DNA of 64,000 bases, taken from positions 1 through 64,000 of the forward strand of contig JAFXKY010000052.1 of assembly GCA_017531485.1 (NCBI GenBank), read 5' to 3'. This DNA comes from Eubacteriaceae bacterium (lineage in GTDB: Bacteria > Bacillota > Clostridia > Eubacteriales > Anaerofustaceae). The notes below the pieces were generated by a model. That model did not search any database. It saw nothing but the letters and a program-made list of their open reading frames with translations, and was not told the origin of the DNA. Shown in pieces: positions 2,274-5,472 of the stretch (the first letter of the stretch is position 1; every line of letters begins with the position of its first letter). A program made the position numbers and the translations under genes.

Positions 2274-3095
2274 TTATTTTTTCAGATTTTCAAATTCTTC
2301 TCGGATGTCGACGCCGAAGATCTTTTTCATAGCGTCCATATATTCATTGTCGTCTTCAAGAACCGTTACAGTCTTCTGATGGTTTTCAACGACAGAAAGT
2401 TCTCTGCCCGTGAGGGAAACGCTGCCGTTTTTCGTTCTCATGTTCAGATTTGCCCTGTCACGGAAGCGTGCATTGGGTCCGACTCCGCACATGATGTTCG
2501 GTGCGATATAATCCACCGGCTTATATTCTGCGATGCCTGCCTGAAGCACGATCTTGGGCTGATTGTTGATCCGGGATTCTTCGGAGAGGCGGTAGAGATT
2601 AAACCAGTATTCACCGACGCGTTTCATCATGAATTTTTCGCCGTGAATGTCCTGCCACTCATCTTCCTTATATTCAACGATTCCCGGAGGCATTGCACCG
2701 CCGCCCACGTCGAAGTAATATTTCTTTCCCTCGAGTACGACGCAGCTTCCGCGGTGGAACACGGGGGCAACAGTTTCTTCCGTGGGCATGATCCTGCAGG
2801 GGACGCAGTATGCGTTGTATCCAAGCTCCTGAACGAGCTTGATGAAAAGTCCGTTTATTTCAAAGCAGTATCCGCCGCGTTTGTTGATAACGATCTTATT
2901 ATAAATATCTTCGATGTCGATGGAGATATCTTTGCCGAGAAGACCAACATCAAGAGTATCGAACGGTACGTGTGTCTGATGTGCGTAGATGAGTCTGTCG
3001 AGATAATCTTTGTCGAGTTTTTCCGGACGTGGCATTTCGATTCTTTCGAGATATGTGTCTACGCTCGGAAGGGGTGCATATAATCCTGAGTACAT
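2274..3095 (-). CDS. nat: Arylamine N-acetyltransferase
   Basis: Transfers acetyl from acetyl-CoA to aromatic amines or hydrazines through an acetyl-cysteine intermediate. The family catalytic triad is visible: Cys77 in RGGYCFE, His114 in the VFHRGS strand and Asp129 in YYFDVGGG. The length of 273 residues is typical. I chose the second in-frame ATG (3095) because an AAAAGGAG ribosome site lies 5 bases before it; the upstream ATG (3113) would overlap that site. In Clostridia these enzymes are monocistronic and their natural substrate is usually unknown. The neighbours give no clue. Confidence 0.93.
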   Translation of the reverse strand: MYSGLYAPLPSVDTYLERIEMPRPEKLDKDYLDRLIYAHQTHVPFDTLDVGLLGKDISIDIEDIYNKIVINKRGGYCFEINGLFIKLVQELGYNAYCVPCRIMPTEETVAPVFHRGSCVVLEGKKYYFDVGGGAMPPGIVEYKEDEWQDIHGEKFMMKRVGEYWFNLYRLSEESRINNQPKIVLQAGIAEYKPVDYIAPNIMCGVGPNARFRDRANLNMRTKNGSVSLTGRELSVVENHQKTVTVLEDDNEYMDAMKKIFGVDIREEFENLKK

Positions 3096-3302
3096 ATTTT
3101 CTCCTTTTAACATTTGATGATGAATAAATTATACGTTTATTTTAATATTTTTTCAATAATATCATATGTATTTTGTAAATTTGTTTAATAGTGGATATAA
3201 TAAGATGAGTGCTCCCCACAAAGCAGGGAACACTCAGAAATAAGAGGAAAGAAATGTCATGCGGTATATAATATGCTATTTTTGCGGCTTTGACATAAAA
3301 CA

Positions 3303-3331
3303 TTGAAAAATTACGGGTACTATGGTAAAAT
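3303..3331 (+). promoter_or_regulatory. SigA-type promoter for murT-gatD
   Basis: TTGAAA and TAAAAT are separated by 17 bases. This places the transcript start near 3340 and supports translation from the ATG at 3363 rather than from 3303. Confidence 0.65.
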
Positions 3332-3362
3332 ACTCCTGTCAATAAATTCTGAGGTAAATATA

Positions 3363-4745
3363 ATGAAAATGTTTTTTACTATGTTGCTTGTCAAACCGAT
3401 AATCTTCATAATGAATCTTCTCGGTTTTTCCGCAACCAACTTACCCGGTAACATCTGTCTGAAGATCTTCCCGGATATACTTGCACACTTCAAAATGCCG
3501 AAATACGTGATTTTTGTCACAGGCACCAACGGCAAGACGCTTTCCGCCATTACTATCAGCCACATTTTCCGTGAAAAGGGAATGACGGTAGTAAACAACA
3601 ACGAAGGCAGCAATCTCGATTCCGGGCTCATTTCAAAGCTCATCAAGAATTCAACATTCACAGGAAAGATCAAAGCCGATGCCGCAGTTCTGGAAGTTGA
3701 TGAAGATGCAACGGCAAAGATGTGCAATATCTTAAAGCCGAGCCACCTTATGATCACGAATATCTACCGTGACTCCATTTCCCGCAACGCTCATCCCGAA
3801 TTTGTTCTCAGAAAGCTCAGAAAAGTTCCGGGAGATGTTTGCCTTGTATTGAACGGTGACGACGCACTTTCCGGAATGCTCGGAACAGACGAAAACCGCA
3901 AAATATTCTATACTGTGGACAAGGCGCCCGACAGGGATGATAAATGCGAAAACCTCATCTGCGACATCCGCACATGCCCGGTCTGCCATATGCCCATTAA
4001 ATATGAATACATTCAGTTCCACCACATCGGCAAATTCCACTGCGAACATTGCGGATTCGAAATGCCCGAAGGTGATGTGCAGGCAGGGGATATTGATTAT
4101 GAAAAGAGAACTTTCGTCCTCCGCGAAAAAGACGGAAAAACGACGGAGTTTCCGTTCTCAACGGGAAATCTCTATGAAGTATATAACAATACTGCCATCG
4201 CCGCACTCTGCCTTGATCTCGGTTTTGACGGAAAATTCATTTCCGATTCAATAAAGAGTCTTTCGTCAACAGGCGGAAGATATAAGGAAGATGTTGCAAA
4301 CGACACGGCAATAATCTCAATGGTCGGAAAGAGCCAGAATCCGATATCATGCTCGCAGTCATTCGCAAAGGCGAAGATGATCGATGGCAAGAAGGTCATA
4401 ATCATCGCTATCAACGACCGCGTTTATGGCGGACACGACCACAACGAAGACACTTCATGGTTCTACGACACTGATTTCGAATTCCTCGTAAGCGATGATG
4501 TATTGCAGTATATAGTCGTGGGTCACAGAATGTACGACGTGGCGTTAAGGCTTGTCATGGCGGGGGCAGACGAAGATAAGATACTCCTCACGCCGGAATA
4601 TGACCTGTCAGCGGCGAAGATGGTGGATTATGACGCTGTAAAAGGCGGAAGCATACTTTATTTCTTTGAAGTATATTTCCGTGAATGGTCTGTAAAGATG
4701 AAAGAAGCATTACTCGCGGAGGCAAAAGCGCATGAAAAACATTAA
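3363..4745 (+). CDS. murT: Lipid II isoglutaminyl synthase, Mur-ligase subunit MurT
   Basis: With GatD, MurT amidates the D-Glu of lipid II, using ATP and glutamine-derived ammonia on the cytoplasmic face of the membrane. The 460-residue protein shows the Mur-ligase P-loop TGTNGKT (53-59). It also has a MurT-specific four-cysteine zinc ribbon (Cys205, Cys208, Cys227, Cys230) and the C-terminal domain with DTSWFYD (Asp363). That Asp is at the place of the MurT Asp that completes the catalytic triad of GatD in Staphylococcus. The motifs around GKSQNPISCSQ and an insertion rich in His/Asn before DTSW are divergent. A GAGGT site precedes ATG 3363, and the 3' end overlaps gatD by 14 bases. See the finding on GatD for why amidation is in doubt. 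Confidence 0.93.
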   Translation: MKMFFTMLLVKPIIFIMNLLGFSATNLPGNICLKIFPDILAHFKMPKYVIFVTGTNGKTLSAITISHIFREKGMTVVNNNEGSNLDSGLISKLIKNSTFTGKIKADAAVLEVDEDATAKMCNILKPSHLMITNIYRDSISRNAHPEFVLRKLRKVPGDVCLVLNGDDALSGMLGTDENRKIFYTVDKAPDRDDKCENLICDIRTCPVCHMPIKYEYIQFHHIGKFHCEHCGFEMPEGDVQAGDIDYEKRTFVLREKDGKTTEFPFSTGNLYEVYNNTAIAALCLDLGFDGKFISDSIKSLSSTGGRYKEDVANDTAIISMVGKSQNPISCSQSFAKAKMIDGKKVIIIAINDRVYGGHDHNEDTSWFYDTDFEFLVSDDVLQYIVVGHRMYDVALRLVMAGADEDKILLTPEYDLSAAKMVDYDAVKGGSILYFFEVYFREWSVKMKEALLAEAKAHEKH

Positions 4746-5472
4746 AATAAATTATATATGCCCTGAACTGTGTCATTTTTACGGTGACGCAGGAAATCTC
4801 CGCTACATCGAAAAGAAAGCGGAAATGATGGGAAACAGCGTTGAGATAATCGAAAGCTCACAGTTTGACGTTCCGCTTTTCGCCGGGGAAGGCTGTGATA
4901 TGGTTTATATCGGTGCGACGACGGAAGAATATGTCTTTGACGTTATGAATTATCTTAAAAAATATCGTCAGGCATTTGTGAACTATATCGAAAACGGCGG
5001 ATATGTTCTCGCGACGGGAAATACTCTGGAATGTTTTTATGAAACCATTACACGTGATGACGGAGAAGTTTTCGAAGCTCTCGGAATGTTTCCGCTTCAC
5101 GCCAAACAGTTTTATGGAAAAAGACATTCGTATAACGTAATTGCAAAATACGATGACCGCATCACCGTTGCAGGTTATAAAAACCTTTGCAGTGACACTG
5201 ATGAAAAGGTATATGAAAATTATCTTTTCAGAATAATTCGTGAAGCGGGAAAGAACGTCGAAGAAGGATGCGAAGGCATCCATTACAAAAATCTCTTTGC
5301 GACATATCTTCTCGGTCCCGTACTCCTTCAGAATCCCGAGTTCTCCGATGAGATATTCATGGGACTTTTCGGGGAAGACTTCAGAAAAGTGAGGATACCC
5401 TTTGAAGTTGAAGCGTACGAAAAGAGAGTAAACGACGTAATGAATTCAAAAAATCCTGATAAGAATGGTTGA
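4732..5472 (+). CDS. gatD: GatD-like glutamine amidotransferase subunit, catalytic residues missing
   Basis: The 246-residue protein aligns along its length with GatD, the glutaminase partner of MurT. Shared features are the N-terminal YGDAGN segment and the C-terminal EGIHYKNL...TYL-GP region. The nucleophile elbow, ICGGYQ in active GatD, reads ATGNTLE here, so Thr95 stands where the catalytic Cys should be. The TYLHGP motif reads TYLLGP, so Leu194 replaces the catalytic His. It therefore looks unable to hydrolyse glutamine, although the frame is intact and the gene is translationally coupled to murT. It could be a structural partner, or MurT could use free ammonia. Confidence 0.88.
   Translation: MKNIKINYICPELCHFYGDAGNLRYIEKKAEMMGNSVEIIESSQFDVPLFAGEGCDMVYIGATTEEYVFDVMNYLKKYRQAFVNYIENGGYVLATGNTLECFYETITRDDGEVFEALGMFPLHAKQFYGKRHSYNVIAKYDDRITVAGYKNLCSDTDEKVYENYLFRIIREAGKNVEEGCEGIHYKNLFATYLLGPVLLQNPEFSDEIFMGLFGEDFRKVRIPFEVEAYEKRVNDVMNSKNPDKNG

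Follow-up and report, generated by a model that had tools for sequence, protein, structure and literature searches.

The lipid II isoglutaminyl synthase MurT/GatD, represented by the complexes of S. aureus (6gs2/7q8e), S. pneumoniae (6fqb) and S. pyogenes (9sq9), is the closest described system to the locus considered here, with which it has in common the two-gene order, the GatD fold and the zinc-ribbon MurT domains. In S. aureus GatD, the catalytic C94 occupies a strained backbone conformation (PMC5871853), and the C94G, C94S, C94A and H189A variants lose glutamine-dependent activity (PMC3266927, PMC5871853, PMC6113224). In S. pneumoniae MurT, N85 is assigned to the acceptor carboxylate and D112/E113 to Mg2+ (PMC6085368; for residue roles also PMC6113224), and a further MurT Asp (S. 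aureus D349, S. pneumoniae D355) is proposed to complete the GatD triad (PMC6113224, PMC6085368); activity is severely reduced by D349N in S. aureus (PMC6113224) and reduced, but not abolished, by D355A in S. pneumoniae (PMC6085368). Neither S. aureus MurT nor GatD is active alone (PMC3266927 Table 2). With GatD C94G as its partner, S. aureus MurT can no longer amidate lipid II from glutamine but does so at pH 8.5 when supplied with NH3 or NH4Cl (PMC3266927 Table 2); at pH 7.5 the complex makes no use of ammonia (PMC3266927). Human CPS1, an unrelated synthetase, likewise uses ammonia and carries an inactive glutaminase-like domain, in this case within a single chain and with a Cys to Ser change (PMC4655335).

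The window, a stretch of 64,000 nucleotides from an Eubacteriaceae bacterium (contig JAFXKY010000052.1), holds a pair of this kind on its forward strand. The murT gene (3363–4745, ATG at 3363) encodes a MurT-type Mur ligase of 460 aa, and its stop codon lies within gatD (4732–5472), which encodes a homolog of 246 aa; the 14 nt overlap and the uninterrupted GatD frame bear out the sequence-only reading, in which both frames were intact and coupled. The ligase matches Mur_ligase_M, MurT_C (E 6e-20) and S. aureus MurT 7q8e (E 4e-49), and its AlphaFold model has a pLDDT of 88. The smaller protein matches the GATase_3 profile (E 9e-12) and the S. aureus GatD structures 5n9m/6gs2 (E 3e-14). Its AlphaFold model (pLDDT 92.6) adopts the class I glutamine amidotransferase fold, with Foldseek matches to GatD, HisH and PdxT structures, the top solved match being the GatD of 6gs2 (E 4e-18, TM 0.82). 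Both proteins score well short of the NCBIfam equivalog cut-offs (GatD 54 of 400 bits, MurT 166 of 800 bits). The smaller protein is a genuine homolog of GatD. Upstream of murT, on the opposite strand, lies an arylamine N-acetyltransferase-type gene (2274–3113); a genome of the same genus, G001, has two such genes there (L037:2262-3086 and 3207-4013).

The catalytic Cys-His of class I glutamine amidotransferases is absent from the window GatD. The nucleophile region aligns with that of S. aureus without gaps (LAT-G-NTLECF vs LTI-C-GGYQFL), which places Gly96 (codon GGA, 5017–5019, +) at the position of C94, and Leu194 (codon CTC, 5311–5313, +) takes the position of H189 (TYLLGP vs TYLHGP). The sequence-only reading was thus right that both residues are missing and that Leu replaces the His, but its assignment of the Cys position to Thr95 was one residue off. 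Gly96 forms the turn between strand 91–95 and helix 96–102 in the AlphaFold model, and the ungapped alignment together with this model rules out Thr95 as the nucleophile. Cys101, which had also been raised as a residue that might occupy the nucleophile position, is placed by alignment and model inside the helix, five residues along, and lacks conservation; for these two reasons it is no substitute. The GatD motifs of G001 are identical at 78% protein identity, so a sequencing error is unlikely.

We found MurT_C in 89 of 120 related genomes and recovered 88 MurT and 87 GatD proteins, those of the window included. A maximum-likelihood tree of 86 MurTs, built independently of GatD states, separates 36 canonical proteins from a single branch with 50 members, that of the window among them (SH-aLRT 99). 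This branch remains intact (99) among 91 MurTs when broad outgroups from Actinomycetota, Chloroflexota and Melainabacteria are added, and the support for its sublineages in that tree is 99 for A1, to which the window belongs, 95 for A2 and 100 for B. A GatD tree calculated without the active-site columns gives the same split, with one change needed. At the Cys position all 50 GatDs recovered from the branch (9 A1, 5 A2, 36 B) carry Gly, and the catalytic His is missing from each of the 49 with data for that site, which matches the earlier suggestion of a distinct, putatively glutaminase-dead GatD lineage. In the literature searched, the coverage of which is partial and leaves novelty unproven, we found no description of a naturally glutaminase-dead GatD lineage. 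The branch covers several families of the class as well as MAGs titled Clostridia, Oscillospiraceae and Erysipelotrichaceae (titles taken from a contig scan with a single P-loop pattern, 49 named loci), and a canonical pair occurs in 0 of 13 genomes of the window's own family. Across 398 genomes drawn evenly from the phylum, with the Pfam score as a rough sorter, the majority of MurT matches fell within the canonical score range; among the seven lowest-scoring complete new MurTs that were inspected, those of G249, a genome of another class, and G326 fall in the same branch. No GatD was recovered for the low-scoring MurTs of G205 and G217 from this draw.

Within the lineage gatD adjoins murT in 49 of 51 cases and lies 752 nt away in one, and one contig yielded no GatD. 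Relative to G001, GatD has a pN/pS of 0.18 and MurT one of 0.17, with synonymous sites near saturation; taken with the invariant residues described below and the adjacency of the genes, these values show that the pair is not decaying, and together with the motifs of G001 they counter an explanation by sequencing error or pseudogene. The loss of the glutaminase residues is old and common to the lineage, and the pair is held under purifying selection.

The invariant MurT residues of the branch comprise the P-loop Gly and Lys (G54, G57 and K58 of GTNGKT, residues 54–59, 3522–3539, +), N84, E111, D113/E114, D137, R141, K323 and the four zinc-ribbon cysteines Cys205, Cys208, Cys227 and Cys230 (3975–4052, +), the last of which are invariant in canonical MurTs also. 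The S. pneumoniae equivalents are N85 for N84, D112/E113 for D113/E114, D136 for D137, R140 for R141 and K321 for K323. Since no residue with a known part in ligation varies within the lineage, the description of the remaining MurT motifs as drifted was too strong. The retained zinc ribbon, P-loop and DTSW Asp on which the same reading relied are indeed all present, and Asp363 (4449–4451, +) aligns with D349/D355 in the comparison with 7q8e, but this Asp is incidental to the window and not a property of the lineage, being found in 5 of 14 MurTs of sublineage A (window included) and replaced by Asn in 37 of 37 of sublineage B. The equivalents of S. pneumoniae D139 and E143 are lost throughout the branch; their replacement in S. 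pneumoniae has a minor effect, and the loop that carries them is proposed as an ammonia channel (PMC6085368). What changed is thus the glutaminase site together with the proposed ammonia-channel loop of MurT.

If the pair makes no amide, it would be a relic of MurT/GatD with a scaffolding or regulatory role, as the loss of every recognised glutaminase residue, and in most of the lineage of the MurT Asp too, could suggest; the invariance of the MurT residues for ATP and magnesium across so divergent a lineage and the purifying selection on both genes make this unlikely. We consider it more doubtful still that glutamine continues to be used, whether through hydrolysis by unrecognised residues or through a separate glutaminase that feeds the complex. 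Arg131, which corresponds to the glutamine-binding R128 of S. aureus, is retained in the window and in 13 of 14 A pairs overall, and would fit such use, but the GGG oxyanion motif is altered in GatDs of the lineage, no conserved Cys lies at or near the elbow, and C94S is inactive in S. aureus (PMC6113224). For a feeding glutaminase, the window's genome offers only one further GATase_3 match, the his-operon protein HisH, a candidate that we rejected.

Of the readings in which MurT remains a ligase, we hold with moderate confidence that this is an old MurT/GatD lineage that no longer hydrolyses glutamine and draws on free ammonia instead. GatD would have ended its production of ammonia and would be retained as an obligatory non-catalytic subunit, on the proposal that it stays because MurT needs the complex for activity. 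Sequence comparison shows the loss of all recognisable glutaminase chemistry, its shared descent and the retention of the MurT ligase residues and of an adjacent GatD; the acceptor, the use of ammonia and the activity itself we infer. Besides these points, the reading is favoured by the minor effect in S. pneumoniae of replacing the two loop positions that are lost, by the purifying selection on both genes and by the recurrence of Cys loss in other branches. The S. aureus C94G complex offers the nearest likeness, with Gly at the same nucleophile position (PMC3266927), although it carries an engineered single change whereas the present lineage is natural and has lost the His and often the MurT Asp too. 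An inactive glutaminase-like domain is similarly kept in CPS1 (PMC4655335), an ammonia user. The precedent of C94G at the same time weakens the ammonia reading, as that complex used ammonia only at pH 8.5. Moreover, loss of the glutaminase alone leaves unexplained a set of lineage-wide MurT changes, namely an Arg after the DE pair (11/14 in A and 36/36 in B, the window MurT itself having Asp there), the conversion of RYGE to RN[AG]x, with RN or RQ in place of RY, and a KNP loop longer by two residues in the entire lineage (vs 0/37 canonical MurTs).

These changes adjoin the contact residues for ATP, Mg2+ and the acceptor, and they invite the alternative that MurT is an active ligase with a changed reaction, using another amine (an amino acid or diamine) or another carboxyl, with GatD as a non-hydrolytic or amine-binding partner. 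Sublineage B speaks for this, since numerous residues of both subunits have become invariant in it, among them acidic ones close to the former glutamine site (in window numbering, Glu at 64 and 126 and Asp at 135), in addition to its loss of the R128 equivalent. Against it, the Asn that contacts the acceptor and the D/E pair have not changed, and we regard this alternative, the main rival of the ammonia reading, as possible but tentative.

The distribution of pairs within genomes is also relevant to a changed reaction. The window's genome (2.17 Mb, 95% complete) contains no canonical MurT/GatD pair; the search for a second pair, which had been proposed as a check, returned one (C7:33052-34170, −) whose GatD likewise has neither Cys (VIGTTIALF) nor His (TNALGP). 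Two or three divergent pairs of the lineage occur per genome in this genome (G000), G001 and G007, and in G031 and G062 a canonical pair is accompanied by one of sublineage B. Divergent pairs that share a genome are not all likely to be doing the same job, and coexistence of either kind implies that at least one sublineage may do something else. It is conceivable, though we would not rank it as probable, that at least one sublineage, possibly that of the window, is a new peptidoglycan ligase that attaches a non-ammonia amine to the D-glutamate alpha-carboxyl (or to another carboxyl), with the former glutaminase as a non-hydrolytic partner.

Gene neighbourhoods support a role of the pairs in the wall and leave the substrate unnamed. 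The B pair of the window's genome has a PBP transpeptidase and a peptidoglycan-binding M14 peptidase nearby, the pair of G017 an FtsW/RodA-type gene, MinD and a PBP, and the B loci of one family a phosphoglucomutase-family (GlmM-like) gene. An alanine racemase gene follows the A1 pairs of G004 and G010, and an ornithine racemase-like gene the B pair of G118, which would suit a changed amine; this linkage is seen at only three examined loci and fits any wall enzyme, and the neighbours of the window pair, YmdB and SpoVS, carry no information on substrate. Elsewhere in the window's genome (C56, L165:1423-4153), a second MurE-type ligase adjoins a diaminobutyrate-2-oxoglutarate transaminase (EctB type). 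The MurE diamino-acid motif of this genome is DNSR, close to the mDAP type, and is irrelevant to the nucleophile.

Loss of the GatD Cys has also occurred outside the lineage. In G133, G212 and G268 (L147, L148, L149) a separate Cys to Gly change is found with the His kept, beside a drifted MurT from which the DE pair and the lysine of KNP are missing. The Cys is Ser in G079 and G115, Gly in G097 and the second pair of G081, Ala in G186, and Ser with a His to Gln change in G368; several of these losses (Ser, Gly or Ala) stand beside an otherwise canonical MurT. On the MurT tree the separate losses number seven, of which at least six are forced by starred branches, some rows having no GatD to check. 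A natural MurT-GatD fusion of 860 aa is encoded at L062:486-3065 (G068), its GatD part having Gly for Cys with the His kept, and canonical-looking MurTs with no GatD ORF within the flank examined occur at L111, L124 (Gastranaerophilales) and L109.

Annotation by homology predicts glutamine-dependent formation of D-iso-glutamine wherever murT/gatD occurs; by its sequences, a large branch of Clostridia relatives cannot be using the known glutamine route. In these bacteria the wall is probably modified with free ammonia or another amine. Amidation at the carboxyl concerned affects transpeptidation (PMC3266927), NOD2 senses a muropeptide that bears D-iso-glutamine, and Ruminococcus and Ruminiclostridium are left without a type in a 2024 review of gut peptidoglycan (PMC11382707). 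The lineage amounts to a natural C94G experiment, in which the question of why MurT needs GatD becomes directly testable.
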